Source of the DNA: Sedimentibacter hydroxybenzoicus DSM 7310
GTDB lineage: Bacteria; Bacillota; Clostridia; Tissierellales; Sedimentibacteraceae
Reading direction: 5' to 3'
DNA: 64,000 bases
NCBI RefSeq assembly: GCF_013403245.1
Contig: NZ_JACBNQ010000012.1
Coordinates: forward strand, 1-64,000
This document shows positions 32,981 to 47,553 of this stretch, piece after piece. How positions within the stretch are numbered: position 1 is the first letter of the stretch; the number at the start of each line of letters is the position of its first letter. The translations under genes and the position numbers were made by a program. The notes under the pieces are model-generated. The model had not been told where the DNA came from. It saw nothing but the letters and a program-made list of their open reading frames with translations, and did no database searches.

Positions 32981-33184
32981 AGTAAAAAACAAACCGCCTC
33001 TATATCATATATTATAGAGGCGGATTTCCGCGGTACCACTCTATTTGCTGCAATGCAGCATCTCATTTCGGTAAAAACTCAAAGACGGGTTCTTTATACA
33101 GAGGGACAAAAGCTCTCACCTGTCGCTTTCTCTCTTTGGACCATGCATAAATACTATTTCTTATCACAGTTTATATTAAATTTA
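32981..33184 (-). ncRNA. T-box leader of proS
   Basis: On the minus strand the antiterminator bulge reads AGAGTGGTACCGCG (33042-33029), the T-box consensus. It is followed by the terminator CCGCCTCTATA / TATAGAGGCGG (33023-32994) with a T-rich tail. Upstream are AGAGAG and GGTGAGAGC of stem I, and GAACCCGTC (33092-33084), which offers a proline specifier codon, CCC at 33089-33087 (or CCG one base on). Uncharged tRNA-Pro would stabilise the antiterminator and turn on proS. Confidence 0.92.
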
Positions 33185-33320: not shown

Positions 33321-33989
33321 CTATAAAATATTATTTAATAAACCTGCAATAAGTGTTCTTGGATGTACGATAGGTATATTTAATCCCTCAGAAATTGTTT
33401 CTCGCCATTCATTAGTATATCCAAGACAATCTAAAATCAATAAATCCGGTTTGTCATGCTGAAAGTGACTGATAATATTGCTGCACCCAAGACTATCAGA
33501 CGGGTTTATGCAAATGCTGTCATTTAATTTAATATCTTGTTCCCAACTCTCCTTCATACTTATGAAATGAGATTCGAACGGAAATACTGCTGAAATCTTC
33601 ATTCCTGAGTCAATTGATTTAACAGTGTTATGCAGCAATTTATACGGCTCGATAAGCGGTACACTGCATTTAATATTATCAAATTTACTCGTACACAAAA
33701 GTACTATTGCTGCAGTATCTTGCTGACAATATAAGTCTATCTTATTTTGAAGCAAATCCATCGCAGCATTTCGTGAAAATGCATGCATCCTACCATCTTT
33801 TAATTTTGAAACAAACGGCTCTTCATCTGTTGCAGGAATAAATTCTTTACGAATATATTCACAAGAAAATTCATCCATAACACCCGCATGAACAATATTG
33901 ATATGATTGTTCAAGAGTGCACTTATATCAGGTATTATATCTGTACGGGGCGAATGTCCCATAGTTATCATTGCAGCTTTCTTATTCAA
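33321..33989 (-). CDS. AroM-family protein
   Basis: A 222-residue protein with the AroM-family start ITMGHSPRTDIIPDI (usually IGQSPRxD). Cys99 in VLLCTSKF and Cys188 in LDCLGYTNEW lie where the two catalytic cysteines of the Asp/Glu racemase superfamily would be expected. AroM is named after the E. coli gene next to aroL, and its function is unknown. The start is TTG 33989, because GGAGGG lies six bases upstream; longer readings run back into the permease gene. It is the last gene of the long minus-strand operon. A racemase or isomerase role for the operon substrate is conceivable but only inferred. Confidence 0.8.
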   Translation of the reverse strand: MNKKAAMITMGHSPRTDIIPDISALLNNHINIVHAGVMDEFSCEYIRKEFIPATDEEPFVSKLKDGRMHAFSRNAAMDLLQNKIDLYCQQDTAAIVLLCTSKFDNIKCSVPLIEPYKLLHNTVKSIDSGMKISAVFPFESHFISMKESWEQDIKLNDSICINPSDSLGCSNIISHFQHDKPDLLILDCLGYTNEWRETISEGLNIPIVHPRTLIAGLLNNIL

Positions 33990-34012
33990 TGCATCCCTCC
34001 ATATAGCACAAA

Positions 34013-35347
34013 TTAAGCATCCTTGCAGAATTTTTTCAGACCGGTAAACCTGAATAACAAGTATAATACAAAACCAAAAATGATCCATGCACAACCTATC
34101 ATTATAGCTTGAGACGACAATCTTGATATCATAAATAATGATAAAACTACGGCAACAGCAGGGGTTATCGGATAAAGCGGTGTCTTAAATAATGGATTTA
34201 CATCCTTTCGGTTTTTTCGCAATCCATAAACACAAATACATGATACTATCCAGGAAACCGCTGTTACGAAAGCTACCATTTGAAGAATCACGTATATCAT
34301 TCCTGTAGCCGCAAGAACAAGCATTCCTATACCTGTAACAGCAAGAGCAACAGCCGGAACACCGTTTTTCTTGCGAACTTCTCCAAGCTTAGCAGGCAAT
34401 GAACCTTCACGTCCCATAGAATAAATCATTCGTGAGCCGGTCATCATAAGACCATTCAATGTGCTTGTTGCTGCAAAAATTCCACCAAATGCTATGATAA
34501 GCGCACCGTACTTATTTACGGTTGCCGCAGCTGCTGCGAGTGGAGCTGCTTCGATGCCCAACTGTGTATAATGAAGCAATCCGTTCATAACAATGACAAT
34601 AAACCCAAATGATATACCGCAGGTGATAAGTGAAAGCAACATGCTTAATGGAACATCCCTTGCAGGGTTTTTGAATTCACTTGACATATTTGGAATTACA
34701 GACCATCCTCCAAATGATGACCATCCTATTGCAGCAGCGGTAATAACTGCCGGGAACCCATTAGGCATAAAAGGAGTCAGCAGCTCACCTTTAATATTAA
34801 ATGAACCCATTGCAACAAAGACTGCTAAGGCACCAACCACAGCAAATGTAGATACAAGCTGAATGGCATTACCGAGACGGGTATCTATTATGTTGCTAAT
34901 CGTAAATAAAATAATAAGTGTAATAGCAAAATAAGTCGGTATAAAAGTAAATCCTGCTCCTGAAAGCTCTAGAACGGCATTGACATAGTTGGCACAAGTC
35001 AATGCAAGAACAGCGGCTCCCAAGCCTTGTCCACCGTAAAGTGCCCAACCGGTTAGAAATGAAATCGAATCTCCCGCTTTACCCATTGTTTCCTTAGGGT
35101 AAATATATGCTCCCCCGGACCGCGGAAATGCCGAACTCATTTCACAATAACACAAAGCAATTATTAATGTAACCGCTGCACAAATAATAAAAGATATAGA
35201 CGTTGCAGGTCCGGCAATTGATGACATAAGCCCACTTGCAACAAATATTGTTGCCCCTATCATGCTGCCGGTCCCCAATGACCAGCCATCAAGCAAAGTT
35301 AATTTTTTTATTTCAGATTCTTTTTTATTTGCAATAGAATTATTCAA
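34013..35347 (-). CDS. APC-family amino-acid permease
   Basis: A permease of about 444 residues with twelve membrane helices. The N-terminal TLLDGWSLGTGSMIGATIFV holds the GSMIGxxIF motif of helix 1 of APC transporters, and helix 6 has AAIGWSSFGGWSVIPNMSSE. It belongs to the amino acid-polyamine-organocation superfamily. The start is uncertain: TTG 35347 has AGAAGG eight bases upstream, while GTG 35356 overlaps that site. It follows the TRAP genes by 57 bp. It may import an amino-acid-like substrate or exchange substrate for product. Confidence 0.85.
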   Translation of the reverse strand: MNNSIANKKESEIKKLTLLDGWSLGTGSMIGATIFVASGLMSSIAGPATSISFIICAAVTLIIALCYCEMSSAFPRSGGAYIYPKETMGKAGDSISFLTGWALYGGQGLGAAVLALTCANYVNAVLELSGAGFTFIPTYFAITLIILFTISNIIDTRLGNAIQLVSTFAVVGALAVFVAMGSFNIKGELLTPFMPNGFPAVITAAAIGWSSFGGWSVIPNMSSEFKNPARDVPLSMLLSLITCGISFGFIVIVMNGLLHYTQLGIEAAPLAAAAATVNKYGALIIAFGGIFAATSTLNGLMMTGSRMIYSMGREGSLPAKLGEVRKKNGVPAVALAVTGIGMLVLAATGMIYVILQMVAFVTAVSWIVSCICVYGLRKNRKDVNPLFKTPLYPITPAVAVVLSLFMISRLSSQAIMIGCAWIIFGFVLYLLFRFTGLKKFCKDA

Positions 35348-35403
35348 TATTTTCACCTTCTTGTAAGTATTTATCAGCCTTCATAAAATTATCTCATATA
35401 AAT

Positions 35404-36696
35404 TTAACCGCTGAATGTTTTTAAAAATTCCGGCAGCCAAAGTGTAAGTTGAGGAAACATAATAATTACTATCAGCCCGAATATGAAAGTAATAATAAAC
35501 GGTAAAGCATTTACTGCTATCCTGTTTACAGGTACCCCTGATATTCCAGAGGCAACGAAAAGATTCATTGCAACCGGTGGTGTTACAAACCCTATTGCTA
35601 AATCAATTGTCATGATAATACCAAAATGAATGGGATTCCATCCTAACGGTATCAAAACCTGCACCAATATTGGAGCAAGTATAAGTATAGCTGCAGCAAC
35701 ATCCATTATCATTCCAACAAATAATAAGAATACAGCAACTATAGACATTACAACATATTTATTTGTGGATACCATTGCAATGGCGTTAGCAATTTGTGTA
35801 GGAACCTGCATGAAAGAAAAGGCTGTTCCTAATGCGGTTGCAGTTGCCGCAGTAATAATTACTGCTCCTACCAAAATACCGTTATCTACAAAAACTTTGG
35901 ACAAATCTTTCCATTTTAGTTCCTTGTATACAAATATTCCCACAAATAATCCATATACTACACTTACGACAGCAGCTTCCGTAGGTGTAAAAGCACCTCC
36001 GTATATACCGCCTAATATGATTACAGGAACCAACATAGCCCATTTGGCATCCCAAAGTGCATTAAAAAACTTCTTAAAGCTGAATTTTTCTCCAGTTCCG
36101 AAATATCCCCGTTTCTTACTTGTAATATGTGAAACTATCATCAGTAATCCGCCAATTATACATCCGGGGATAACTCCTCCCACAAATAATTCTCCAATAG
36201 ATGTCCCTGTTGATACTCCATACAAAACAAAAGGTATACTTGGAGGTATAATTACGCCTAATCCTCCTGAAACCGCGGAAACTCCCGCAGCATAATCTAT
36301 GGAATACCTTTCCTTAACCATCATAGGTATCATGATTCCACCTATAGCCGCAACCGTAGCCGGAGCTGATCCTGATATTGCTCCAAAGAACAAACAGGTG
36401 ATAACAGTAACTTTTGCAAGTCCGCCTGTGCCGCCTCCGACTATTGTATTAGCAACAGCAACCAATCTTCTTGATAATCCCCCTGTTTCCATTATAGAAC
36501 CGGTAAGCATAAAAAACGGTACTGCCAGCAAAGGAAAGTTCATTAAACTTGTTACCATCGTTTGACCAAGATATGAATAAGATGTAAATGGATTAATTAA
36601 CAATACTCCAATAATTGACAACCCGATGGAAACTCCAATAGGTACACCGATGCATAAAAAAGCAAAGAATCCTATTAATAATAATATCGCTAACAT
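35404..36696 (-). CDS. dctM: TRAP transporter large membrane subunit (DctM)
   Basis: A 430-residue subunit with about twelve membrane helices. The start MLAILLLIGFFAFLCIGVPI continues GVSIGLS; conserved family segments are PLLAVPFFMLTGSIMETGGL, FFGAISGSAPATVAAIGGIM and VIIPPSIPFVLYGVSTGTSI. It carries out sodium-driven transport together with DctQ and the binding protein DctP. GGAGGG precedes ATG 36696. It lies 39 bp after dctQ. Confidence 0.93.
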   Translation of the reverse strand: MLAILLLIGFFAFLCIGVPIGVSIGLSIIGVLLINPFTSYSYLGQTMVTSLMNFPLLAVPFFMLTGSIMETGGLSRRLVAVANTIVGGGTGGLAKVTVITCLFFGAISGSAPATVAAIGGIMIPMMVKERYSIDYAAGVSAVSGGLGVIIPPSIPFVLYGVSTGTSIGELFVGGVIPGCIIGGLLMIVSHITSKKRGYFGTGEKFSFKKFFNALWDAKWAMLVPVIILGGIYGGAFTPTEAAVVSVVYGLFVGIFVYKELKWKDLSKVFVDNGILVGAVIITAATATALGTAFSFMQVPTQIANAIAMVSTNKYVVMSIVAVFLLFVGMIMDVAAAILILAPILVQVLIPLGWNPIHFGIIMTIDLAIGFVTPPVAMNLFVASGISGVPVNRIAVNALPFIITFIFGLIVIIMFPQLTLWLPEFLKTFSG

Positions 36697-36735
36697 TTTT
36701 ACCCTCCTACTTAATTTTAAGATGTCTCACCGATG

Positions 36736-37230
36736 TCATTTTAATTCTTTGTTCATATCATTTATTTCCTTAATTGATTTGATAATATTTTGAATCAACC
36801 TGATTATCATTAATAAAAAGGCAACAGGTACACCAAGATACGGAATCCATTTAGGTGTATGCAATACTGCACTTACAGCTCCCCTCTGTCCCACATCAAT
36901 CGTAAGCTTAGTAACATAAAACATAATAAATGCTGCAAAAATGAAAAACAGAATATCAGATAAAATATCAAATACCTTTTTCCACTTTTTATTTAAATAT
37001 GTTGTAATTATCTCCATTTTCAGATGGGAATTATTTTTAATTGCAAGGCTTGCTCCAAAATAACATAACCATACTAACCCATATAATGATATTTCTTCAG
37101 TCCATGCTAACGGAAGGTGCAGCAAAAACCGAAAAACAATTGATAAAAACAGTAAAATCGTCATAGCTGATGTAATAATAATTATTATATATTTTTCAAT
37201 ATTGTCATCTAACCATTTTAAGACCTTCAT
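36736..37230 (-). CDS. dctQ: TRAP transporter small membrane subunit (DctQ)
   Basis: A 164-residue protein with four membrane helices and the family motif RFLLHLPLAWTEEISLYGLV (the helix pair with W-x-E-E). It assembles with DctM. The start is uncertain: ATG 37230 gives MKVLKWLDDNIEKYI, the usual N-terminus of the family. A TTG at 37254 would add eight residues, but it lies inside the hairpin at 37250-37290 and has no good ribosome-binding site. Confidence 0.85.
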   Translation of the reverse strand: MKVLKWLDDNIEKYIIIIITSAMTILLFLSIVFRFLLHLPLAWTEEISLYGLVWLCYFGASLAIKNNSHLKMEIITTYLNKKWKKVFDILSDILFFIFAAFIMFYVTKLTIDVGQRGAVSAVLHTPKWIPYLGVPVAFLLMIIRLIQNIIKSIKEINDMNKELK

Positions 37231-37249
37231 ACTTTTATCAGCAACCTCA

Positions 37250-37290
37250 TGCAAGGATACATCATCACAATTTTACGACATATCCTTGCA
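37250..37290 (-). other. Intercistronic hairpin between dctP and dctQ
   Basis: TGCAAGGATA and TATCCTTGCA form a perfect 10-bp stem with a 21-nt loop, just after dctP. Such hairpins after binding-protein genes often protect the upstream mRNA so that more binding protein than permease is made. No T run follows, so it is not a terminator. Confidence 0.55.
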
Positions 37291-37328
37291 GTTACCATAC
37301 CTCCTATTTTAGATTTATCAGCAGTACT

Positions 37329-38375
37329 TTAATTCCCTTCAATTTTCTTTATTTCATTAATAACCTTATTCATATAGTCCTCACCGACTATACCTGAAGC
37401 CATGTCTATAACCGGTGCCATCATATCGCGCAATTCAAGCATTGTTTTTTCGCTTACTTCATTTACTGTGGTTCCATCATCTTTAATTTTCTGCAAAGCT
37501 TCATCATTTATTTTCTTGCATATTTCTCGTTCTTTTTCAATTGCAATAGCTGCTGATTCATCAATCGCTTTTTTAACTTCATCAGATTGAGAGTTATAAA
37601 GGTCTGCACTCATGTGCATACCTAAAAATCCATAAACATGATTCGTCAATGAGAGATATTTCTGTACTTCATGGAATTTAGAGTCATAAATTGTTCCAAG
37701 CGGATTTTCTTGCCCGTCAATTGTCCCCTGCTGCAACCCTGTAAATACTTCGCTATACGGCATTGTAGTCGGAACCGCTCCAAAGATCTCAAATGCTTTC
37801 AAATGTAAATTATTGCTTAGTGTTCTGATTTTTAACCCTTTAAAATCTGCAGATTCTTTAATAGGGCGAACATTATTGGTTATAACACGATATCCGAAAT
37901 CCCACACGCCTAAAAGTTTTACTTTAGTGTCTTCTTCATATTTTGCAGCCATCTCTTTTCCAACCTCGCTATCAACCAAAGCCAATGCAGTATCTCGGTT
38001 TAATAACAAATACGGAACATCCAACGGAATAAACGCTTTTGAATACTCTACGACATTGCCTAATGCTATATCCGAAAAGTGTATAATTTTGTTTTGCATC
38101 CCGCCTATTGTCTGGTCAGGACTCGTTCCTAACTGTCCGTTATAGTAAAGCTGGACTTCTACCTGATCACCTACTCTGCTTTCCAATTCCTCTTTGAAAA
38201 TTTTGAAGCCTTGAGAAACCGGATGAGTTTCGCTTCCCATAAGAGATACTTTCCATATCTGTTTTTCCACTGATTTTACGGGTTCGCCTGTTTTAGATGC
38301 CGAACCGGAACTGCATCCTGCCAGTGAAACAACAACAAACACTAAAACTAATAATAAACTTAAGCCCTTTTTCAT
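37329..38375 (-). CDS. dctP: TRAP transporter substrate-binding lipoprotein (DctP)
   Basis: A 348-residue exported binding protein. The signal peptide ends in the lipobox SLAGCSSGS (Cys about 21), so it is membrane-anchored. It shows the DctP-type fold, including WDFGYRVITNNVRPIKESAD followed by FKGLKIRTLSN, whose Arg normally pairs with the carboxylate of the ligand, and LQQGTIDGQENPLGTI. This implies an organic-acid ligand. AAGGAAGTAAAGTT precedes ATG 38375. Confidence 0.93.
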   Translation of the reverse strand: MKKGLSLLLVLVFVVVSLAGCSSGSASKTGEPVKSVEKQIWKVSLMGSETHPVSQGFKIFKEELESRVGDQVEVQLYYNGQLGTSPDQTIGGMQNKIIHFSDIALGNVVEYSKAFIPLDVPYLLLNRDTALALVDSEVGKEMAAKYEEDTKVKLLGVWDFGYRVITNNVRPIKESADFKGLKIRTLSNNLHLKAFEIFGAVPTTMPYSEVFTGLQQGTIDGQENPLGTIYDSKFHEVQKYLSLTNHVYGFLGMHMSADLYNSQSDEVKKAIDESAAIAIEKEREICKKINDEALQKIKDDGTTVNEVSEKTMLELRDMMAPVIDMASGIVGEDYMNKVINEIKKIEGN

Positions 38376-38405
38376 AACTTTACTTCCTTTCTAATATTTT
38401 TAATA

Positions 38406-38615
38406 TTATTTTTCTTTATGTACAGTTATTGCTACATCAGGACATACCATATAGCATAAAGCGCAACCTATACAGGGAGAACCTTCTTTAAATTCAACGT
38501 AATCATATCCACCATCATTTGTACGGCCGGATAAACCCAAGCATTCTTTCGGGCAAACACTGATACATCTTAAACATCCTTTGCAATAATTTTTATCAAC
38601 TACCGAATATGACAC
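38406..38615 (-). CDS. Ferredoxin-type delta subunit of the 2-oxoacid oxidoreductase
   Basis: A 69-residue protein with two 4Fe-4S motifs: CKGCLRCISVCP and CIGCALCYMVCP. It starts at GTG 38615 with GGAGGTGATA upstream. The small 2x[4Fe-4S] subunit passes electrons from the catalytic subunits to free ferredoxin. It follows the gamma subunit gene by 18 bp, so the four subunits (alpha, beta, gamma, delta) are all in the operon but split into two blocks by the acyl-phosphate genes. Confidence 0.92.
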   Translation of the reverse strand: MSYSVVDKNYCKGCLRCISVCPKECLGLSGRTNDGGYDYVEFKEGSPCIGCALCYMVCPDVAITVHKEK

Positions 38616-38633
38616 TCTATCACCTCCATAACA

Positions 38634-39185
38634 CTATTTAGCTATCTCATATCCTTCGGACATTGCTTTTAAGTTTATATCAAGTGCTTCAGGCTTAGAT
38701 TTAAACTTATTCTTGATACTCTCCTTCATAAGATCAATACTGATTGATGTACAGTACTTTGCATATGCGCCCAAGACTACCATATTTGCACATTGTACAA
38801 AGCCGATTTCCAACGCTATATCTGTTGCGGGAACCTTGACTATTTTTAAATTTTTTAACTTCTCCTCAGCTTCTCCCGATATTTTTACCAGGCTTGTGTT
38901 CACAACAATCATTTTGCTTTTGTCCAACTTGTCCAAGAATTTATCGAAGGATGCCTGATTCATTATCACTGCATGCGTAGGCCTTGTAAACATAGGACTC
39001 AGAATCTTTCCATCTGAAATAACAACCTGACAGTTACACGTACCGCCACGCATTTCCGGTCCGTACGAAGGCATCCATGATGCATTTAAGTTGTTTTCTA
39101 TACAGGCTTCGGCAAATATTTTTCCGGCCGCAAGAATTCCTTGTCCTCCAAAACCTGCAAATAAAATTTTTTCTTTTATTGCCAT
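38634..39185 (-). CDS. 2-oxoacid:ferredoxin oxidoreductase gamma subunit
   Basis: A 183-residue subunit with the POR gamma signature FAGFGGQGILAAGKIFAEAC at the N-terminus and SYGPEMRGGTCNCQVVIS. It contacts coenzyme A and completes the active complex. The closest types are the four-subunit 2-oxoisovalerate (VOR) and 2-oxoglutarate (KOR) enzymes. GGGAGAAGAAAC precedes the ATG. Confidence 0.92.
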   Translation of the reverse strand: MAIKEKILFAGFGGQGILAAGKIFAEACIENNLNASWMPSYGPEMRGGTCNCQVVISDGKILSPMFTRPTHAVIMNQASFDKFLDKLDKSKMIVVNTSLVKISGEAEEKLKNLKIVKVPATDIALEIGFVQCANMVVLGAYAKYCTSISIDLMKESIKNKFKSKPEALDINLKAMSEGYEIAK

Positions 39186-39210
39186 GTTTCTTCTCCCTTC
39201 CTTATCAATA

Positions 39211-40281
39211 TCAATATACCTTTATTTTTTCTTCCCCGTTCAACGCTCTGACAGCTCCCTGGGCAAGGGCCTCCATTTCATATTCACCCGGGAATATAAA
39301 AACAGGGGCAATGAAATCGAGATGTCTTGATAATTCGTTCACAATGTATTCGCTGTTTGCAATAGCACCCGTTATACCTATGGCATCTGCATCCCAATTT
39401 ATTATCGTACAGTATGCGGCCACTTCCTTAGCGATTGCGTAAATCATAGAATCAAGAACATCTTTCACTTCCGCATCATCTATGCTTTTCTCTTCAATGG
39501 CAATTACATCATTTGTACCTAAATACGATACTAATCCGCTTTTTTTGGAGAATTCCTTTTTCCAATCCCCGGCTGTTTTTATTTCACTGAATTTTTGCAT
39601 TGAACTTAATAATTCATCCGCGGGCAATCTGCCGCATCTTTCAGGAGAAAATGGTCCGTCGCCTCCCGAACCGAATGTATTATCCACACACCGCCCTTTT
39701 AAGTGAGCCGTGACCGAAATTCCGCTTCCCAGATGAGCTGTAACCATATTAATATCTTCAACTCTTTTACCTAATTTTTCAGCGATAAAACGTGCAACGG
39801 CCTTTTCGTTTAAAGCATGAAAAGCACTGTTCCTCTTAATCGGAGCAAATCCTGAAATTCTTGAAACCTCATGAAACTCATCTATAAGCGGAGGATCGAT
39901 TACAAACGATGGTTTGCCGTGTTTATTCGCAAAAAGTATTGCCAGCTGGCATCCTAAGTTTGAAGGATGGTCCGAATACTTTCCCGTTTTACAGTCGTCT
40001 ATCATTTGTTCACTGATGGAAAATACACCGCCTTCCATTGGCCGCAAAGCACCTCCGCGTCCCACAAAAGCGTCAATTTCCGCCATATCAATTCCTTCCG
40101 ACTCAACCGTTTTTTTAATAAGCTCATACCTGTAATTAAGCTGATCCTGAATTTTACCCATAGCCTCAAGCTCTTCATTTGAATGCTTAATATTTTTTGA
40201 AAATTCAGCTTCATTGTCATTGAAAACGGCAATTCTTGTAGAAGTAGATCCGGGATTAATGCAAAGCAATCTATAACCCAT
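39211..40281 (-). CDS. buk: Butyrate kinase (branched or short-chain acyl kinase)
   Basis: A 356-residue ASKHA kinase that makes ATP and a carboxylic acid from an acyl phosphate. It has the phosphate-1 motif LLCINPGSTSTRIAVF, the phosphate-2 motif VTAHLGSGISVTAHLKGRCV, the adenosine-type motif GITGAIANSEY and FGSGGDGPFSPERCGRLP. Length and motifs agree with Buk. ATG 40281 has GGGGGAG five bases upstream and overlaps the end of the preceding gene by 11 bases. The real acyl group follows from the 2-oxoacid oxidised in the pathway and need not be butyryl. Confidence 0.92.
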   Translation of the reverse strand: MGYRLLCINPGSTSTRIAVFNDNEAEFSKNIKHSNEELEAMGKIQDQLNYRYELIKKTVESEGIDMAEIDAFVGRGGALRPMEGGVFSISEQMIDDCKTGKYSDHPSNLGCQLAILFANKHGKPSFVIDPPLIDEFHEVSRISGFAPIKRNSAFHALNEKAVARFIAEKLGKRVEDINMVTAHLGSGISVTAHLKGRCVDNTFGSGGDGPFSPERCGRLPADELLSSMQKFSEIKTAGDWKKEFSKKSGLVSYLGTNDVIAIEEKSIDDAEVKDVLDSMIYAIAKEVAAYCTIINWDADAIGITGAIANSEYIVNELSRHLDFIAPVFIFPGEYEMEALAQGAVRALNGEEKIKVY

Positions 40282-41317
40282 TATTTTCTCCCCCAATACT
40301 CATGATTTTATTTGGAGTTGATTCCGCAATACCTGCAGCATTCAGCAGGTACTCCGACATATCCGGCTCAAAGCATTCTACCTCGGCAATCTTCTGTATT
40401 CTCGGAAGAAGCGAATTAATTATAAGCTTGCTTCGTATTCCTTTACCTGTCAGAATAATTAAATCGATTTTTCCCTTAAGACACATGGCACCGCTTCCTA
40501 TCCACTTTGCGGTTTGGTATGCAACAGCATCAGCAATCAGCACGGCATATTGATTTCCTGATTCCGCCAACACATCTATCTCTTCAGGCTCATCTGTTCC
40601 AATATATCCTTTAACTCCCGATTCATACCTTAAATCGTCCCGTAAATTGTTGATGTCGTGCTTCTCCGTATAGATTGCAAGCTGTGCTACGGGAACATCT
40701 CCGGATGATTTAAAACCCATGGGACCCTCAAGGCCGATAGCATCATTAACATCTATACATACTCCGCACATATGTGCTCCAACCGAAACTTCATCATCAA
40801 TATCAGCTACGATAATATTTAAGCTTTCAGGCGACTTTCCTAATTTTTTAGAAGCAAAGTATATTGCGGCCTGATGCCTGCAGGAATTATATCTGCTGAA
40901 TTTTTTAACCTGTGAGTGACCGGTAATCCTGTTAAGTTTAAACAATCCGTCAGATGACATGGAATCGCACATGAGAGCAGCAGCCGATAATAATCTTGCA
41001 ATTTCCAGACAAATTAATGCAACCTCATTATTTGCGTGAACTCCCCACATTTGCTCCCGTAACTCTCTTTCGGCAACGGCATCAATAAGATACACGCCTT
41101 GCTTCAAAGGTCGGACTATACCTCCGGGACAGATTATATATTTAATATTTGCACCCTGTATTTCTTCCGACAGCTCTCTTGCTGCCTGAAACGCTGTTTG
41201 TTCAATCTTACCCTTTTCAAAACGGTGCTTTTTTGATACGGTTTTATTTCCCGACAGCCAACAAATGTTTAACATACCTTCTTTCAAATACAAAGCAACA
41301 TTAATATTATTTTTCAT
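40271..41317 (-). CDS. Degenerate butyrate kinase paralogue
   Basis: A 348-residue protein with the overall Buk layout but missing key motifs. The phosphate-1 motif NPGSTSTR is replaced by ALYLKEGMLNICWLSG, and AHLGSGISV by ADIDDEVSVGAHMCGVCIDV. Still recognisable are GGIVRPLKQGVYLIDAVAE, NSCRHQAAIYFASKKLGKSP, GLEGPMGFKSSGDVP and LIILTGKGIRSKL. It is probably catalytically dead or has changed activity. It lies directly between ptb and the intact buk, overlapping the latter by 11 bases, so it may form a heteromeric complex with Buk. That function is inferred. Confidence 0.8.
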   Translation of the reverse strand: MKNNINVALYLKEGMLNICWLSGNKTVSKKHRFEKGKIEQTAFQAARELSEEIQGANIKYIICPGGIVRPLKQGVYLIDAVAERELREQMWGVHANNEVALICLEIARLLSAAALMCDSMSSDGLFKLNRITGHSQVKKFSRYNSCRHQAAIYFASKKLGKSPESLNIIVADIDDEVSVGAHMCGVCIDVNDAIGLEGPMGFKSSGDVPVAQLAIYTEKHDINNLRDDLRYESGVKGYIGTDEPEEIDVLAESGNQYAVLIADAVAYQTAKWIGSGAMCLKGKIDLIILTGKGIRSKLIINSLLPRIQKIAEVECFEPDMSEYLLNAAGIAESTPNKIMSIGGENNGL

Positions 41318-41327
41318 ACATCCACCT

Positions 41328-42254
41328 TTATTGCATTGCTTCCGACTGACTTACCAATGCCGAAAGTACAATTGAAAAATATTTTGTATCATGATCGTCT
41401 CCCCGGGACGTTAAAATAAGCGGTACCTTTGCACCCATTCCTACGCCTGCAACTCGTACATCATTACTCAGATACATCAATCCTTTAATCAAGATATTTC
41501 CTGCTTCAAGATCGGGAACTATAAGGACATTTGCATCTCCCTGTATTTTACCTTTGAAATTTTTTGTTTCTGCAGCATGTACGCTTACGGCAATATCCAT
41601 TGAAATTGGTCCTTCAACGATTGCTCCGCCCTTTATCTGACCCCTTTCACTCATCTTAGAAAGAAGTGCAGCTTCAGTCGTAGCAGGCATTGCTTCAATT
41701 TGTACTTTTTCATGTGCACACAACACGGCTACCTTCGGAACCTCTACGCCGACAGCCTTTGCAACCTGAGTGCAGCATTCTATTATACCGATTTTAGCAT
41801 CCACATCCGGAGCAATGTTCGTACCAACATCCGCCAAAACTATCAATTTATTCTGAGCTTCCAGAAGCACAACGGAGCAGAGGCGGTTATTCGTCTTTAG
41901 CCCTTTGTCCTTATTAAGCACTGCTCTTAAGAAATCACTAGTTTCTACCAGGCCTTTCATAAGGAGATGGGCCTTTCCCTCTTGTATAAGCTCAACAGCT
42001 ATTGCCGCAGCTTCGACAGGCTCCTTGACATCTATCACTTGGTAATTTTCCGGATTAATATCATTTTTCCTGCATATTTCGTTTATCAAATTTAAATCGC
42101 CCACCAGTACCGCATCTATTATTTTCTTTTGGCGGGCATATTCTATAGCTAGCATTGCCTCTTCACTTTGTGCCGCAGCAACTGCAACCGTTTGCTTAGA
42201 CCCCCTGAGAACCAGTTTTTCCAAGCTATCGAATGAATTAAGATTATTAGTCAA
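41328..42254 (-). CDS. ptb: Phosphate acyl(butyryl)transferase
   Basis: A 308-residue member of the PTA/PTB family, which turns acyl-CoA and phosphate into acyl phosphate and CoA. It has AHLLMKGLVETSDFLRAVLN, the family core, then LADVGTNIAPDVDAKIGIIE and NVLIVPDLEAGNILIKGLMY. The start is TTG 42254, with AGGAGG eight bases upstream. It is ten bases before the Buk-like gene. Together with Buk it conserves the thioester energy as ATP. Confidence 0.92.
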   Translation of the reverse strand: MTNNLNSFDSLEKLVLRGSKQTVAVAAAQSEEAMLAIEYARQKKIIDAVLVGDLNLINEICRKNDINPENYQVIDVKEPVEAAAIAVELIQEGKAHLLMKGLVETSDFLRAVLNKDKGLKTNNRLCSVVLLEAQNKLIVLADVGTNIAPDVDAKIGIIECCTQVAKAVGVEVPKVAVLCAHEKVQIEAMPATTEAALLSKMSERGQIKGGAIVEGPISMDIAVSVHAAETKNFKGKIQGDANVLIVPDLEAGNILIKGLMYLSNDVRVAGVGMGAKVPLILTSRGDDHDTKYFSIVLSALVSQSEAMQ

Positions 42255-42266
42255 AGCTTATCCTCC

Positions 42267-43262
42267 TCAATCCAAAAATTGTACTTTTTCTTTTATTGCC
42301 GGATTTCCGATTGCTTCAGGACACTTTCCTGTAAGAACGTCTGCCACTCCCTGAGCAACCTTTTGTCTAAGCCTTACAAGTGCTTCATTTGTTGCGGCTC
42401 CTATATGGCCTGTGGTTATTACATTGTTTAATTTAAATATCTCATCCTCAGGGTCAGGCGGCTCAAATTCAAGAACATCTAAGCCTGCGGCAGCTATAAC
42501 TCCCTGATTAAGAGCATCACACAAAGCCTTTTGATTAATGAGTGCACCTCTTCCGGTGTTGATCAATATTGCATCCTTTTTCATCATCTTAAGCTGCTCT
42601 GCATCTATCATATGATGTGTTGAAGCCATAAGCGGAACATGCAGAGATACATAGTCAGAATTCTTTAAAAGGTATTCCAAATCAACTGACTCAACATTTA
42701 AATCCTTACAGAAATCAAGGTTTATATATGGATCATACGCTATTACCTTCACCTGCAGCGGTTGAACAAGAGGAACAACCTCACGGGCAATCGCTCCGAA
42801 GCCTATCAGTCCGAATGTTTTCCCTTTTGTACTTCGGGCTCCCGCAGAAGCCTTAAGTGCACTTTTCCATTCTCCCGATTTAACAATTTCGTTAGCGGGG
42901 ATTATTCTTCTTTCACATGCGAGCATCAATGTTAGAGCAAGAGTTGCAACCTCCTCCTGACAATAAACAGGTACGTATGTAACTACAATTCCCGCTTCTG
43001 TCGCTGCCTCTGCATCAACATTATCAATTCCGACACCATACCTGCCAATAACCTTACATTTTTTTAATTTTGATATTGCTTCTCTAGTAATTTTAGCACC
43101 GACGGTTATTATTGCATCCGCATCTGCTGCAACCTTTTCTATTTCTTCCGGTGTGACACAATTATATTGTTCAACGGTAGCACCTATAGCTTCCAAGATA
43201 TCCGTTTCATAATGAGTCAACGGAAGAAGTTTATCTACCGAAACTACTTTAAATTTTCCCAT
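42267..43262 (-). CDS. D-isomer-specific 2-hydroxyacid dehydrogenase
   Basis: A 331-residue SerA/D-lactate-type dehydrogenase. The NAD-binding motif is TFGLIGFGAIAREVVPLVQP. Catalytic residues are Arg in VGRYGVGIDN or NTGRGALI, Glu in EFEPPDPEDE and His in TTGHIGAATNEA. It lacks the C-terminal ACT domain of many SerA proteins. Lying between the oxidoreductase and ptb genes, it most likely makes the 2-oxoacid from a 2-hydroxyacid, or works in the reverse direction as an electron sink. Substrate unknown. Confidence 0.88.
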   Translation of the reverse strand: MGKFKVVSVDKLLPLTHYETDILEAIGATVEQYNCVTPEEIEKVAADADAIITVGAKITREAISKLKKCKVIGRYGVGIDNVDAEAATEAGIVVTYVPVYCQEEVATLALTLMLACERRIIPANEIVKSGEWKSALKASAGARSTKGKTFGLIGFGAIAREVVPLVQPLQVKVIAYDPYINLDFCKDLNVESVDLEYLLKNSDYVSLHVPLMASTHHMIDAEQLKMMKKDAILINTGRGALINQKALCDALNQGVIAAAGLDVLEFEPPDPEDEIFKLNNVITTGHIGAATNEALVRLRQKVAQGVADVLTGKCPEAIGNPAIKEKVQFLD

Positions 43263-43276
43263 TACATCGTTCTCCT

Positions 43277-44023
43277 TTATTCAGAAATTGTGTCTTTAAA
43301 CACAACAGGTTTATAAAATTCAAGGATTTCGTCAGTGATTCTCTTATATGCATCGTTCGGAGAAAGATTCCATCCAATCGGACAAGGACTTACTATTTCA
43401 ACGAGCGAGAATCCCTTTCCGTCTATTTGATTCTGAAAAGCTTTTTTTATAGCCTTCTTTGCAGCACTTATATTTTTTGCAGAATCAACAGAAACACGCT
43501 CAACGTAGCACGCTCCGTCACATTGGGCAATCATCTCAGACATACGTATCGGCAATCCGTGATAAGAAGGATCTCGTCCGTCAATACAAGTAGATGCCTT
43601 TTGACCTATTAATGTTGTAGGAGCCATCTGACCGCCTGTCATGCCATAGATTCCATTATTTATAAATAATGATGTAAGATTCTCTCCCCGGGTAGCAGCA
43701 TGTATAATCTCAGCCGTTCCAATTGCAGCCAAGTCTCCGTCACCCTGATATGAAAAAACAATTTTGTCAGGCCGTACACGTTTAATTCCTGTAGCTGTAG
43801 CCGGAGCCCGCCCGTGCAGCGGAAAGGCAAAATCAATATTGTAAAAATCATAGAGCATTCCTCCGCATCCAACATATGAAACACCTATTGTGTTTCCTGC
43901 TATACCCAATTCGTCTATAACTTCCGCTAACAGTCTGTTGCAAACACCATGACCGCAGCCGGGGCAATACGTAAACTGTTTTTCATTTAAACTAATAGGT
44001 CTTCCATAAACCTTGTTGGCCAT
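43277..44023 (-). CDS. 2-oxoacid:ferredoxin oxidoreductase beta (TPP-binding) subunit
   Basis: A 248-residue subunit. TPP and magnesium are bound at YQGDGDLAAIG ... FINNGIYGMTGGQMAPT, the GDGxxxxIG...NN pattern. The N-terminal FTYCPGCGHGVCNRLLAEVI is typical of beta subunits of the VOR/KOR group. ATG 44023 has GGAGGGAG upstream and overlaps the end of the alpha gene by 32 bases, indicating coupled translation. Confidence 0.93.
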   Translation of the reverse strand: MANKVYGRPISLNEKQFTYCPGCGHGVCNRLLAEVIDELGIAGNTIGVSYVGCGGMLYDFYNIDFAFPLHGRAPATATGIKRVRPDKIVFSYQGDGDLAAIGTAEIIHAATRGENLTSLFINNGIYGMTGGQMAPTTLIGQKASTCIDGRDPSYHGLPIRMSEMIAQCDGACYVERVSVDSAKNISAAKKAIKKAFQNQIDGKGFSLVEIVSPCPIGWNLSPNDAYKRITDEILEFYKPVVFKDTISE

Positions 44024-45101
44024 CCAACTCCCTCCAATCCTTACCGTTATTGTCTATTATTGATTTTATTTTTTCACTGACAACATCCATATCAATAATG
44101 CTTCCGCCCATACGACCGTGATAATATACTGGACATATTTCATTAACGTACATTCTGATATCTCTTGTCAACATTCCTGCATTGTGCTCAAGAACCACAA
44201 CTGCTTTAGCATTATGAATAATTTTCTTAAAAGCCCCTTCAGCAAACGGCCATAATGTTATAGGCCTGAACAGTCCAAGCTTATATCCTTCTTCTCTTGC
44301 TTCGGCAATAATTTCATGAGCCATACGGGATACTGAGCCGAAAGCCACTAATATTACCTCGGCATCTTCCGTCATTATTTCTTCAAATCTCTGTTCGTTA
44401 GCAGTGCAAATATCATATTTACGCTGTAAAGCAATATTGTGCTCTTCAAGTTCCTGTGCAGAATTTTTCGGTTCAGCTTTTCTCGGTGCTCTACCCTCGC
44501 AGCCTGTTAAGGCATAACTTGGCGTAGGTAAATCTTCAGGTGCAATAGGCTTCATAAACTCAACATTTTCTATCATTTGACCTATTGTTCCGTCTGCCAA
44601 TATCATTGCAGGGTTTCTGTATTTGTCGGCAAGCTCAAACGCCAATCTCGTCAGATCAGATGCTTCCTGAACTGAATTAGGAGCAAGAACTATTACATGG
44701 TAATCACCTGTTCCTCCACCCTTTGTTGCCATGTTATAATCGCCCTGCGTTGCAAGTATATTTCCTAATCCCGGTCCTCCACGCATCATATCTACGATGA
44801 CAGCAGGTATCTCCAGATATGCAAGGTGAGAAATTCCTTCTTGTTTCAAAGCCATTGCAGTTCCGGCAGAAGAAGTCATCGCTCTGAAACCGGCAACAGC
44901 ACTTCCGAAAACCGCATTAATTGCTGTAATCTCACTTTCAGTTTGAATAAAAACTCTTCCTAGCTTCTTCATGTTTTTGGCCATGTAAGCTGTCAATTCA
45001 TTCTGAGGAGTAATAGGATATCCGTAATATGCTTTGCAGCCTGATCGGATAGCCGATTCAGCAATCGCTTCATTTCCTTTCATAAACATTTTCTTGCTCA
45101 A
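43992..45101 (-). CDS. 2-oxoacid:ferredoxin oxidoreductase alpha subunit
   Basis: A subunit of about 369 residues. GNEAIAESAIRSGCKAYYGY then PITPQNELTAYM is the pyrimidine-binding N-terminal domain of the POR family; RAMTSSAGTAMALKQEGISH carries the conserved TSS-G. The C-terminal part is the transketolase-like domain II. The start is TTG 45101, eight bases after AAGGAG; an ATG at 45119 would lie in front of that site. With the beta, gamma and ferredoxin subunits it oxidises a 2-oxoacid to acyl-CoA, CO2 and reduced ferredoxin. Confidence 0.92.
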   Translation of the reverse strand: MSKKMFMKGNEAIAESAIRSGCKAYYGYPITPQNELTAYMAKNMKKLGRVFIQTESEITAINAVFGSAVAGFRAMTSSAGTAMALKQEGISHLAYLEIPAVIVDMMRGGPGLGNILATQGDYNMATKGGGTGDYHVIVLAPNSVQEASDLTRLAFELADKYRNPAMILADGTIGQMIENVEFMKPIAPEDLPTPSYALTGCEGRAPRKAEPKNSAQELEEHNIALQRKYDICTANEQRFEEIMTEDAEVILVAFGSVSRMAHEIIAEAREEGYKLGLFRPITLWPFAEGAFKKIIHNAKAVVVLEHNAGMLTRDIRMYVNEICPVYYHGRMGGSIIDMDVVSEKIKSIIDNNGKDWRELDGQQGLWKTY

Positions 45102-45141
45102 AATAAATTCTCCTTTCATATGTGAAAAATTTTGAATACAT

Positions 45142-46173
45142 TTAATTAATTCCCGTTACTTTTTTCGGAACATGCGTCCCCATTTCTCTTATATGTTCTG
45201 CACTTATACCCTGTCCAAGCAAGGTCCTGATAAAGCTTTTCCACCCTGGGATAAATTCATGCTGAGGCTGACCGCTGTCAGATGCAAGCATAAGATGGTC
45301 TGTTCCCTTTTCCTTAATAAGCTCTTTTAAAAGAGAAAATGAGTAGTCAAAATTAATTATCCAATTCTGCATTCCAGGCCATGGAACACAGCTTGTCTCG
45401 GCAAACTGCAGGTATGCCCCCAAGTCAATCATCTCCTTGCACTCTTCATGTGTGGCAATTGTTAACTCCTGTGTAACATGGTCAATAATAACATCAACAT
45501 CCATTCCTGCTTTTTTAACATATTTCAATATGTCAAATTTCTCCTCATTTGAAACGTGACAGGTTGCCAAAGCACAGCGTAATCCTTTTGAATTATTATT
45601 GTAATCAGCTAATACATCAAGCAGTTCTTTCATTTCTGAAGTAAGAACACCGCTTTCCGATACCTTAATTCCGCCTTCTTTTCCCATTGCCGCACGCTGA
45701 TATGCCGAATCAAGTGACGGCAGCCATACTTCTACACACTGACCATACCCTAACGCCGTACGAACAGCATTTATATTCATACCGCCTACCGCATCATTAA
45801 GCACAATCCCCCCGTAAATTTTTGTAGGAATAAATCGCTCCCCGGACAACGATTTCTCGACAGATAAAATATGCAGCATTTCATTTGTGATCTGTGCAAA
45901 ATTGTTAGTCATAGTATAGTGGTCCTTGAAAACAATTGCTCCGACCTTATTTTTACTTGCTTCAATTGATGTTTGTACAATTGTCGGTCTTCCTGACAGC
46001 CATGCTCCTGCGGGAGCTCCATGCGTATGAATATCAACAATGCCTTCAAGCAGCTCTGTAACCTCTTCCGGTTCTACCGGTCTTCCCGGTTCAAAAATCT
46101 GATAAGGCCAAACTGCACTTGTCCGCCTTTTTATCTCCTCATCAGTTAATACAGTGCCATATTTCTGGTTCAT
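45142..46173 (-). CDS. DUF6282-type metal-dependent hydrolase
   Basis: A 343-residue protein of the amidohydrolase-like TIM-barrel type. Visible metal-ligand candidates are His-x-His in GIVDIHTHGAPA (strand 1), Lys in AIVFKDHYTM, His in ALATCHVSNEEK, His in VIIDHVTQE and Asp in LMLASDSGQPQHEF. This is the usual amidohydrolase ligand order. I place it in the DUF6282 group from its start region and motifs; no member that I know has a defined reaction. As the first enzyme gene of the operon it may open a lactam, lactone or amide to give the acid that is then oxidised. GGAGG precedes ATG 46173. Confidence 0.78.
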   Translation of the reverse strand: MNQKYGTVLTDEEIKRRTSAVWPYQIFEPGRPVEPEEVTELLEGIVDIHTHGAPAGAWLSGRPTIVQTSIEASKNKVGAIVFKDHYTMTNNFAQITNEMLHILSVEKSLSGERFIPTKIYGGIVLNDAVGGMNINAVRTALGYGQCVEVWLPSLDSAYQRAAMGKEGGIKVSESGVLTSEMKELLDVLADYNNNSKGLRCALATCHVSNEEKFDILKYVKKAGMDVDVIIDHVTQELTIATHEECKEMIDLGAYLQFAETSCVPWPGMQNWIINFDYSFSLLKELIKEKGTDHLMLASDSGQPQHEFIPGWKSFIRTLLGQGISAEHIREMGTHVPKKVTGIN

Positions 46174-46254
46174 AAAAAATCCTCCTTTTATATGTTTAGT
46201 AAATATTTAAATATAGCTACTCAAATAACAAACCTACAGTTAAGTAGACAGAAT

Positions 46255-46288
46255 GAATACATTCTTGTATTCTGTATTCTGTATACAC
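46255..46288. promoter_or_regulatory. GntR operator cluster before the catabolic operon
   Basis: GAATACA-TTCT-TGTATTC (46255-46272, perfect 7-bp arms) is followed by CTGTATACA (46279-46287), identical to the site upstream of gntR. Repeated GAATAC/GTATTC half-sites run between them. The cluster lies in the 167-bp gap between gntR and the hydrolase gene. Confidence 0.6.
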
Positions 46289-46340
46289 TTTGTATTAAAA
46301 AAAAATAAATTTGTAAATATCATAAATTAAAAGCGAAAAA

Positions 46341-47006
46341 TTAATAACTGTTTGGCACAACCTCTTTAATTATATAATCTATATGTTTTCTCGAATACTG
46401 CATAGCCATTTCACTGTCATTCGCAATTACTGCATTAAGTATATCTTTATGCTGATCACTGCATATTTGAACCGCATTTTCTACTGCAGCCAAACTTACA
46501 TGACTTCTGAATAATCTGTCTCTGAGTGAATTGCTTATCAAAAGCATTCGCGAATTTCCTGATATTTCAATTATTTTTCTGTGAAAGTTTGTATCAATTT
46601 TAACAAATTCAAGCCCTATTAATTCCTTATCCATATTTTCTAATTTATTAATCTCATTATAGGTATTAATTAACTCCATTTTTTGTTCATCAGTAATTAC
46701 TGCGGCGGCCATTCCAGCGGCTTCACATTCCAATGCACGTCTGACCTGCAGAACTTCGATAGCATCTTTTTCGTCAAATTCATTAATCAGAACTCTTGAG
46801 TTAGGCATGAGCTTAACATATCCCTCATTATTTAATAATCGAAGAGCTTCACGCACAGGCGTCCTGCTGACACCAAGCATTTTTGCAAGTTCAGTTTCAG
46901 AAACCTTCTCCCCTCCTACTAATGTGCCTTCACATATTGCCTTTTTTATTGCTTCACATACATGATTACTAAGCAATTCATAATTCTTTATTTTTTCTAT
47001 CATCAT
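46341..47006 (-). CDS. GntR/FadR-family (FCD) regulator
   Basis: A 221-residue regulator. The winged helix has GEKVSETELAKMLGVSRTPV then REALRLLNNEGYVKLMPN, the GntR consensus. The C-terminal FCD domain has LQVRRALECEAAGMAA, FHRKIIEISGN (His of the metal/ligand site), and HVSLAAVENAVQICSDQHKD with the following His in KHIDYIIKEV. FCD regulators bind carboxylic-acid ligands, in keeping with the operon. Sites with TGTATACA occur both before this gene and before the hydrolase gene. It is the first gene of the fifteen-gene minus-strand run. Confidence 0.9.
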   Translation of the reverse strand: MMIEKIKNYELLSNHVCEAIKKAICEGTLVGGEKVSETELAKMLGVSRTPVREALRLLNNEGYVKLMPNSRVLINEFDEKDAIEVLQVRRALECEAAGMAAAVITDEQKMELINTYNEINKLENMDKELIGLEFVKIDTNFHRKIIEISGNSRMLLISNSLRDRLFRSHVSLAAVENAVQICSDQHKDILNAVIANDSEMAMQYSRKHIDYIIKEVVPNSY

Positions 47007-47026: not shown

Positions 47027-47040
47027 GTATACTGTATACA
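47027..47040. promoter_or_regulatory. GntR operator at its own promoter
   Basis: GTATAC-TGTATACA ends in a perfect 8-bp palindrome (47033-47040) and shares CTGTATACA with 46279-46287. It lies between the gntR -10 box and start codon, fitting autorepression. Confidence 0.6.
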
Positions 47041-47124: not shown

Positions 47125-47553
47125 TTTAGAAAAAACGAATACTCTAACTTTGCAAAAACAAAAACTTATAAGTAAATTCGTAAATTGAAAAAAGCTTTAA
47201 TATGCTTTATCCTCTACTTTAAGTTTCTCGAATAATTATTTTGACAACATATAAATCCTATAAAGATTATATGAGATTGCAATTGAAAAAGGGATATGAT
47301 AAGATCCTATTAGAAAGCACAAACAATTGGGTATAATGCGAAAAGTTTTATGTTGGATAATTTCTTCATAAAAGAAAAAGAATACGATAAAAATATTCAT
47401 TTATTCAAAGTTCTAATCTGAATTTAAAGAGTAGTCGCTGTGCTTCTCTTGATAATTATGTAGTAACCATAAATTTTTATATAATTTTATATAGTTTATA
47501 GTTAATTAATTAACAAACCATTAACCTGGTTGATACTTTTGGGAGGTCTAACA
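47125..47553. other. Gene-free stretch before the MerR gene
   Basis: No convincing gene is seen in these 430 bases. The only clear structure is the perfect palindrome GTTAATTAATTAAC (47501-47514) and AACCA/TGGTT arms just after it, about 40 bp before the MerR start. These may be operator sequence. Confidence 0.4.

Follow-up and report, generated by a model that had tools for sequence, protein, structure and literature searches.

In the oxidative branch of amino-acid fermentation, a Vor-type 2-oxoacid:ferredoxin oxidoreductase is combined with a phosphate butyryltransferase (Ptb) and a butyrate kinase (Buk), and Sedimentibacter hydroxybenzoicus DSM 7310 carries such a set on contig 15 of its genome. 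Here we describe a second, larger gene set from this anaerobe that shares the same end steps. It lies in a stretch of 64,000 nucleotides, hereafter the window (contig NZ_JACBNQ010000012.1, positions 1 to 64,000 of the forward strand, assembly GCF_013403245.1), where open reading frame calls place fifteen consecutive genes on the minus strand from 47006 to 33321. The genes probably form one co-transcribed unit. We give an even chance to the reading that they serve to take up a small 2-hydroxycarboxylate and ferment it with a yield of ATP, possibly once a lactone has been opened and the product epimerised.

The contig 15 set comprises Ptb, Buk, ferredoxin and the Vor alpha, beta and gamma subunits. 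It agrees with the window in the type of four-subunit oxidoreductase and in the steps that form ATP, and of the sets read in this genome it has the closest Vor (alpha 48%, beta 57% identity to the subunits in the window). The surrounding 16 kb lack a transporter, a hydroxyacid dehydrogenase and homologues of DUF6282, AroM and the predicted pseudokinase described below. A close parallel in overall logic is found on contig 24, where an operon encodes oxidoreductase gamma, alpha and beta subunits, a PanE-family dehydrogenase (TIGR00745 270 bits, cut-off 141), the tripartite ATP-independent periplasmic (TRAP) transporter DctPQM, Ptb, Buk and a truncated Buk of 141 amino acids. It shares TRAP import, a 2-hydroxyacid-type dehydrogenase, 2-oxoacid oxidation, Ptb and Buk with the window but differs in its dehydrogenase family, its distant oxidoreductase (alpha 29%, beta 22%) and its upstream gene, and the stretch read holds no homologue of DUF6282, the APC permease or AroM. 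UbiD/UbiX-like genes were seen by eye upstream of this operon. Contig 2 provides a partial parallel, an oxidoreductase with ferredoxin, DctQ, DctM and a solute-binding-like gene (by eye) beside a divergent Ptb and Buk. Since the same genome holds this close and this partial parallel, the core is not unique, and as far as the core is concerned the initial annotation went too far in stating that the mix matches no pathway known to it; the exact set was nevertheless not found again in the genomes sampled. What is unusual is the joint presence of DUF6282, AroM and a dead kinase, while the core follows known logic. No paper joining butyrate kinase and the oxidoreductase in Sedimentibacter was found in the open-licence literature.

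Two of these unusual proteins show some resemblance to described families. LigI (2-pyrone-4,6-dicarboxylate lactonase) and PTE-like lactonases (4i6k, 5ch9, 4dlf, 5w3w and 2ffi) are among the top matches of a weak structural model of the DUF6282 protein, although identity in the alignments is 12-13% and DUF6282 is a separate Pfam family. Like LigI-type lactonases, some DUF6282 genes sit in ring-cleavage gene sets. The Asp/Glu/hydantoin racemases (PF01177) share cysteine motifs with AroM, but AroM too is a separate Pfam family.

Gene order, families, motifs, operator copies and the motif loss in the second kinase were read directly from the sequence. Families were assigned with Pfam and NCBIfam, and DctQ by homology to other DctQ genes alone. 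In the order of the minus strand the features are:

47027..47040, minus strand: operator-like site TGTATACAGTATAC upstream of the GntR gene (exact match)
46341..47006, minus strand: GntR/FCD transcriptional regulator, 221 amino acids (Pfam FCD and GntR above cut-off)
46274..46287, minus strand: operator-like site TGTATACAGAATAC between GntR and DUF6282 (exact match)
45142..46173, minus strand: DUF6282 protein, long type, 343 amino acids, a predicted amidohydrolase-fold metal hydrolase, lactonase-like (PF19799 129.7 bits, cut-off 26.8; PTE 28.2 bits, above cut-off)
43992..45119, minus strand: 2-oxoacid:ferredoxin oxidoreductase alpha, VorB type (NF005507 453.3 bits, cut-off 399)
43277..44023, minus strand: 2-oxoacid:ferredoxin oxidoreductase beta, thiamine diphosphate (TPP_enzyme_C; GDGD and CPGCGHG motifs; above no NCBIfam cut-off)
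42267..43262, minus strand: D-2-hydroxyacid dehydrogenase, NAD type (PF02826 193.4 bits, PF00389 93.7 bits; GFGAIA, AYDP and Arg/Glu/His regions)
41328..42254, minus strand: phosphate butyryltransferase-like enzyme (PF01515 above cut-off; TIGR02706 293.9 bits, under the equivalog cut-off of 410.5)
40271..41317, minus strand: Buk2, predicted butyrate-kinase pseudoenzyme (TIGR02707 176.6 bits, cut-off 289.1; motif alignments)
39211..40296, minus strand: Buk1, butyrate kinase with intact motifs (TIGR02707 396 bits, cut-off 289.1)
38634..39185, minus strand: 2-oxoacid:ferredoxin oxidoreductase gamma (PF01558; TIGR02175 86.6 bits, cut-off 81.1)
38406..38615, minus strand: two-[4Fe-4S] ferredoxin subunit, 69 amino acids, the fourth oxidoreductase subunit (Fer4 matches; two CxxCxxCxxxC)
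37329..38375, minus strand: DctP solute-binding protein (TIGR00787 203.1 bits, cut-off 175)
36736..37254, minus strand: DctQ small TRAP permease (blastp 22-33% identity to small permease genes between DctP and DctM elsewhere; no NCBIfam match at 1e-15)
35404..36696, minus strand: DctM large TRAP permease (TIGR00786 395.9 bits, above cut-off)
34013..35356, minus strand: APC-family amino-acid-type permease (PF13520; every NCBIfam model matched stays under its cut-off)
33321..33989, minus strand: AroM-family protein (PF07302 161.4 bits, cut-off 23.8)

The intergenic gaps measure 10-74 bp, except for the 167 bp between GntR and DUF6282 that contain an operator-like site. Overlaps occur between oxidoreductase alpha and beta (32 bp) and between Buk2 and Buk1 (26 bp from the first start codon), the latter shrinking if Buk1 begins at an internal ATG, as is likely, five codons in. 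For AroM the TTG at 33989 is most likely the start rather than 34094, because TGGAGGGA lies upstream of it, and an apparent 82-bp overlap with the APC gene thereby turns into a gap of 23 bp. The fifteen genes from GntR/FCD to AroM are thus present with the families first assigned to them, and of the compact layout initially described the short gaps stand apart from the one of 167 bp, while the several overlaps reduce to two after correction of the AroM start.

The operator pattern TGTATACAGNATAC occurs in exact form twice in the window, once ahead of the GntR gene and once ahead of DUF6282, and nowhere else in the whole genome (3.81 Mb). Ten further places carry one mismatch, compared with five genome-wide for the reversed pattern at the same tolerance. 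Allowing up to two mismatches, the window holds 8 matches versus 1.9 expected by shuffling. Because the only two exact copies stand before these two genes, an operon autoregulated by the GntR/FCD protein is likely. At the downstream side, a sigma-70 match of 12/12 (perfect TTGACA-16-TATAAT) at 33218-33191 and an Rfam T-box leader at 33013-33176 (minus strand) precede proS (31471-32916), a proline--tRNA ligase gene identified by eye. The promoter scan of the window was overall near chance, with 68 found versus 55 expected. From its own promoter match and T-box, proS is predicted to form a separate unit before which the operon ends.

The core of the predicted route runs from a 2-hydroxyacid via the 2-oxoacid, acyl-CoA and acyl phosphate to an acid and ATP. 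It is supported because the motifs of the dehydrogenase, the beta subunit, the ferredoxin and Buk1 are intact and the carboxylate-binding residues of DctP can be aligned, which bears out the earlier proposal of an ATP-yielding route from a 2-hydroxyacid to a shorter acid. Both the NAD motif and the catalytic regions are present in the dehydrogenase, as are GDGD in the beta subunit and the two CxxCxxCxxxC motifs in the ferredoxin. The alpha subunit scores above the VorB cut-off, and the beta, gamma and ferredoxin genes lie in the same operon. We use the name Ptb-like since the PTA_PTB Pfam cut-off is passed and the TIGR02706 equivalog cut-off is missed. The dehydrogenase also stays under an equivalog cut-off (TIGR01327, phosphoglycerate dehydrogenase, 260.2 versus 454), and no substrate can therefore be transferred by name to either enzyme. 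It is very likely that the operon is real, and its core logic is supported.

What we infer is co-transcription, the substrate, the direction of the dehydrogenase and the roles of DUF6282, AroM and Buk2. The genes suggest a single regulated catabolic operon of an anaerobic, acid-producing bacterium of the Firmicutes type. A small carboxylate that carries a hydroxyl group at position 2, or a precursor related to it, would enter through the TRAP transporter, and a second form may enter through the APC permease. DUF6282, most likely a lactonase, would then hydrolyze an ester bond or a ring, and AroM may use two cysteines to invert the alpha-carbon. Oxidation by the NAD-dependent D-2-hydroxyacid dehydrogenase would yield the 2-oxoacid, which the four-subunit VorB-type oxidoreductase would convert to acyl-CoA and reduced ferredoxin. 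Finally, the Ptb-like enzyme would form the acyl phosphate, from which Buk1 would release ATP and the shortened acid, perhaps while bound to a catalytically dead Buk2, with the GntR/FCD protein controlling both itself and the operon at TGTATACAGNATAC.

The closest solved relatives of DctP are 4P47, 4NQ8 (which we take to hold pantoate), 4PDH (presumably with erythronate) and 4P9K. In the alignment with 4P47, the DctP residues R163, R184, Y207 and N224 fall on those that bind the carboxylate and close the site, with R163, R184 and N224 corresponding to Arg152, Arg173 and Asn213 in 4P47 numbering. These roles are named in a section of PMC11668362 on IseP and its solved relatives, 4P47 included. 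According to that section, sugar acids occupy three of the structures and orotate occupies 4NN3, two structures are open, and all others contain pantoate or erythronate, often co-purified (PMC11668362). A search of the open-licence literature with pantoate terms found no paper on anaerobic degradation.

With the dehydrogenase read in the opposite direction, the same enzymes would describe a Stickland-like split, in which an amino acid or 2-oxoacid is partly oxidized by the oxidoreductase, the Ptb-like enzyme and Buk1 to gain ATP, and partly reduced by the dehydrogenase to a D-2-hydroxyacid, regenerating NAD. The dehydrogenase is closest to models of phosphoglycerate dehydrogenase and glyoxylate reductase, enzymes that act reversibly, and the APC permease of the operon, or other routes, may supply the amino acid or 2-oxoacid. 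The genome also holds six Ptb-type and seven Buk-type matches, as expected of an amino-acid fermenter. On the other hand, the operon contains no aminotransferase or deaminase gene, DctP resembles hydroxy-acid binders, and the contig 24 operon likewise pairs a TRAP transporter with a dehydrogenase, of PanE type, although its direction could be either. We consider a split of this kind fairly unlikely.

The kinase pair was compared in an alignment of 37 sequences, namely Buk1, Buk2 and 35 places in 21 stretches found by tblastn with both kinases. Apart from small changes, the INPGSTST-, GRGG-, HALN-, HLGGGIS-, SPER- and TGG-type motifs are present in Buk1 and in 34 other full-length sequences; the strongest deviation is that of the kinase on contig 2 of the same genome, which has SRGA as well as QALN, where most others have HALN. 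The remaining place is the truncated Buk on contig 24. Buk2 is the sole full-length kinase among the 37 that lacks all six motifs, yet it retains an open frame and has about 29-34% identity to its best matches. Because it falls below the TIGR02707 cut-off and lacks the active-site motifs, we read it as a predicted pseudoenzyme partner of Buk1, so that the paralogue noted initially is indeed a second Buk-family gene but hardly a second working kinase. It may alternatively be a relict copy. Pairing with a dead kinase as a general rule was considered and rejected: two Buk genes occur in 13 of 15 stretches around other Buk genes, so that pairing is common, but a full-length partner without motifs was seen only here. 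No report of a butyrate kinase pseudoenzyme or inactive paralogue was found among the open-licence papers listed.

The DUF6282 protein displays an HxH...H...H...D metal-site pattern. Across 25 aligned DUF6282 sequences (that of the window plus 24), H49, H51, H206 and D299 are invariant, and K83, H85 and H232 are present in at least 90%. Foldseek with the weak structural model returned 4i6k, a probable 2-pyrone-4,6-dicarboxylate hydrolase, as the best match (E 6.9e-7), and eight of the top ten were pyrone-dicarboxylate hydrolase, COG3618, or PTE/PTE-like-lactonase structures. Some of these have lactonase activity. Together with the Pfam PTE match, the model points to a lactonase hydrolyzing a ring or ester bond as the most likely function. 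The same results speak against a decarboxylase or hydratase like the amidohydrolase-superfamily enzymes of aromatic ring-cleavage pathways, although ring-cleavage pathways have lactonase, hydratase and decarboxylase steps alike.

This alternative draws on the genomic surroundings of other DUF6282 genes. In the two nearest relatives, both of the long type, the gene directly follows that of a glycyl radical enzyme (locus L041) or lies 4.4 kb from one (L038). The best NCBIfam model for both glycyl radical enzymes is indoleacetate decarboxylase, under its cut-off (701 and 636 versus 1100), and the closest solved structure to the L041 enzyme by sequence is glycerol dehydratase. DUF6282 may thus serve different pathways, given this different context. 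Both glycyl radical enzymes (L041 1372-3867, minus strand; L038 3028-5550, plus strand) carry GCVDMQI and RVAGFTAR, where GCVD replaces GCVE, the usual form in known members. Being under every NCBIfam cut-off listed, they possibly represent an undescribed subclass.

On plasmids, 36 records have a DUF6282 match, and of eleven regions examined ten carry annotation. Five of the ten have TRAP or tripartite tricarboxylate transporter (TTT) genes and four have aldolase-type genes; PIG-L and extradiol-dioxygenase genes are found in two regions each, and two have XDH-type genes accompanied by those for an AMP-binding protein and a symporter of the benzoate type. Dioxygenase, PIG-L and aldolase neighbours would suit the decarboxylase or hydratase as well; taken together, the plasmid neighbourhoods favour a hydrolase of organic-acid or ring-cleavage catabolism. 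Weighing both sides, we regard a decarboxylase or hydratase as fairly unlikely and keep the lactonase reading. In the Thermus oshimai plasmid region (L206), DUF6282 lies between catechol 2,3-dioxygenase/GntR and PIG-L/4-carboxy-4-hydroxy-2-oxoadipate aldolase genes, which is where one would look for a pyrone-dicarboxylate lactonase. At loci such as L072, L074 and L076, DUF6282 accompanies a molybdenum hydroxylase that is split into MoCoBD_1 and MoCoBD_2 subunits, together with DHO_dh-Fer4 and TRAP genes and an Amdase-like protein or a PucR regulator. The subunit layout of the hydroxylase is similar to that of nicotinate dehydrogenase, and these clusters look like anaerobic heterocycle degradation. 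No paper on DUF6282 was found in the open-licence literature.

AroM stays under the NF007788 equivalog (151.8 versus 198) and is divergent, with 161 bits against the Pfam family versus 182-269 for 14 others. The family hidden Markov model weakly matches neighbouring PF01177-type genes. In hhalign, an AroM profile from which two of 14 rows were dropped as misassigned (racemase L161 and misframed L163) matched PF01177-type proteins, the Asp/Glu/hydantoin racemases, with 96.2% probability (99.6% before removal) and E 2.7e-9. Amdase-like proteins reached 74% over a shifted stretch of 83 columns, and DUF6282, the negative control, 2%. The AroM of the window and all 12 others compared retain both cysteine motifs of the racemase type. 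AroM thus appears related to these racemases and may act as an epimerase, and DUF6282 and AroM would act before oxidation, as lactonase-like and racemase-like enzymes, respectively.

To place the set among other genomes, 30 stretches around DUF6282 matches, some from the same genome and some ending at contig ends, were searched with all fifteen proteins. Homologues of DctM were found in 11, of DctP in 8, of DctQ in 8, of GntR in 5 and of the dehydrogenase in 2, with a third, weaker dehydrogenase by blastp. By clustering, a DHO_dh-Fer4 protein occurs in six and an arylmalonate-decarboxylase-like protein in five. DctM thus shares a stretch with DUF6282 in 11 of 30 cases compared with none of 14 around AroM (mean length 14.7 versus 10.4 kb, unequal), and no TRAP homologue was found in these 14, which served as a control and are shorter on average.

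DUF6282 of any type was detected in 36 of 299 genomes of the phylum at E <= 0.001, 22 of them above the family cut-off, the own genome included. The long type, defined by the N-terminal extension of the window protein, was found in the own genome alone among 291 of the class, in G143 itself among 20 of its order (60%) and, in a scan that detects close relatives only, in one named Deltaproteobacteria metagenome-assembled genome (50%). None of 24 other genomes of the genus (completeness 62-99%) has it, and one holds a short-type copy (32%). Dehydrogenase matches occur in 27 of 249 phylum genomes, the own included (E <= 1e-60, so that weaker dehydrogenases fall outside). When place lists were compared by eye, dehydrogenase and Ptb matches elsewhere than in the window came no closer to each other than about 12.6 kb; this nearest pair, on contig 36 of G202, lies in a stretch with TRAP genes and, by eye, a sugar-kinase-like gene.

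Several of these results weigh against fermentation of an imported 2-hydroxycarboxylate as proposed. The Vor subunits, ferredoxin, Ptb, Buk, APC and AroM are absent from all 30 DUF6282 stretches, so the recurrence that the initial annotation looked for was not seen for DUF6282 with Vor, Ptb and Buk, and AroM is near DUF6282 only in this window. The L041 and L038 relatives likewise lack Vor, Ptb and Buk, although the L041 stretch ends just past DUF6282. The DUF6282 model is weak (mean predicted local distance difference test, pLDDT, 58.9; predicted template modelling score, pTM, 0.65), because its alignment consisted of two sequences, the L038 relative alone qualifying, and below rank 11 many unrelated TIM barrels also match it. 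Both the dehydrogenase, which could work in the reducing direction, and the Ptb-like enzyme miss their equivalog cut-offs. At the DctP position that corresponds to residue 76 of 4P47, where an acidic side chain usually contacts the hydroxyl of the ligand, there is a serine with an aspartate nearby, and the ligands in the solved relatives are maybe not native, as noted in the same section of PMC11668362. The non-recurrence weakens the case for a widespread pathway and for a DUF6282-AroM partnership, not that for a real operon here.

The absence of AroM and APC from these stretches also bears on whether the unit serves two functions under one promoter, with the genes from DUF6282 through DctM serving 2-hydroxyacid fermentation and APC and AroM, at the 3' end, forming a pair that has nothing to do with it. 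Elsewhere AroM keeps different company: around the 14 other AroM genes, DUF1177-type genes were found in 11 stretches, S-Me-THD-type in 10, PF01177-type and M29-like in 9 each and OPT-type in 7, each neighbour family being checked on one representative. The divergence of the window AroM fits as well. However, APC follows DctM after 47 bp and AroM follows APC after 23 bp on the same strand, and no exact operator copy stands at the pair. Such a division appears unlikely.

We also considered a more specific version of the hydroxycarboxylate route, an undescribed pathway in which a 2-hydroxycarboxylate supplied as a lactone or masked in another way (pantoate/pantolactone-like, or a branched 2-hydroxyacid) would be opened by DUF6282 as lactonase, given its stereochemistry by AroM as a two-cysteine epimerase and harvested for ATP through the dehydrogenase, the VorB-type oxidoreductase, the Ptb-like enzyme and Buk, with Buk controlled by its dead partner. 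In this full form the proposal is unlikely.

Horizontal acquisition was examined as an origin of the operon. The G+C content is 39-41% over 38-46 kb versus 27-39% in the other 2-kb bins, but G+C at third codon positions (GC3) is not distinct (0.21-0.38 in operon genes versus 0.19-0.39 in the rest of the window), and because of this overlap no transfer is claimed. Divergent from the operon, 48448-50271 (plus strand) encodes a lipoprotein-like FMN/FAD reductase resembling, by eye, fumarate or urocanate reductases, adjoined by a MerR-type regulator at 47530-48354.

Overall, DUF6282 and AroM, for which no assigned function was found, gain a concrete and testable role inside a complete energy-yielding route. 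To our knowledge no other pseudoenzyme has been described among butyrate kinases, and Buk2, if the prediction is true, would be the first one. Confirmation of the dead copy would also mean a new way of controlling fermentation at the step that forms ATP. Together with its parallels in the same genome, the operon suggests that one anaerobe may carry several parallel modules that lead from the import of hydroxy or oxo acids directly to ATP.

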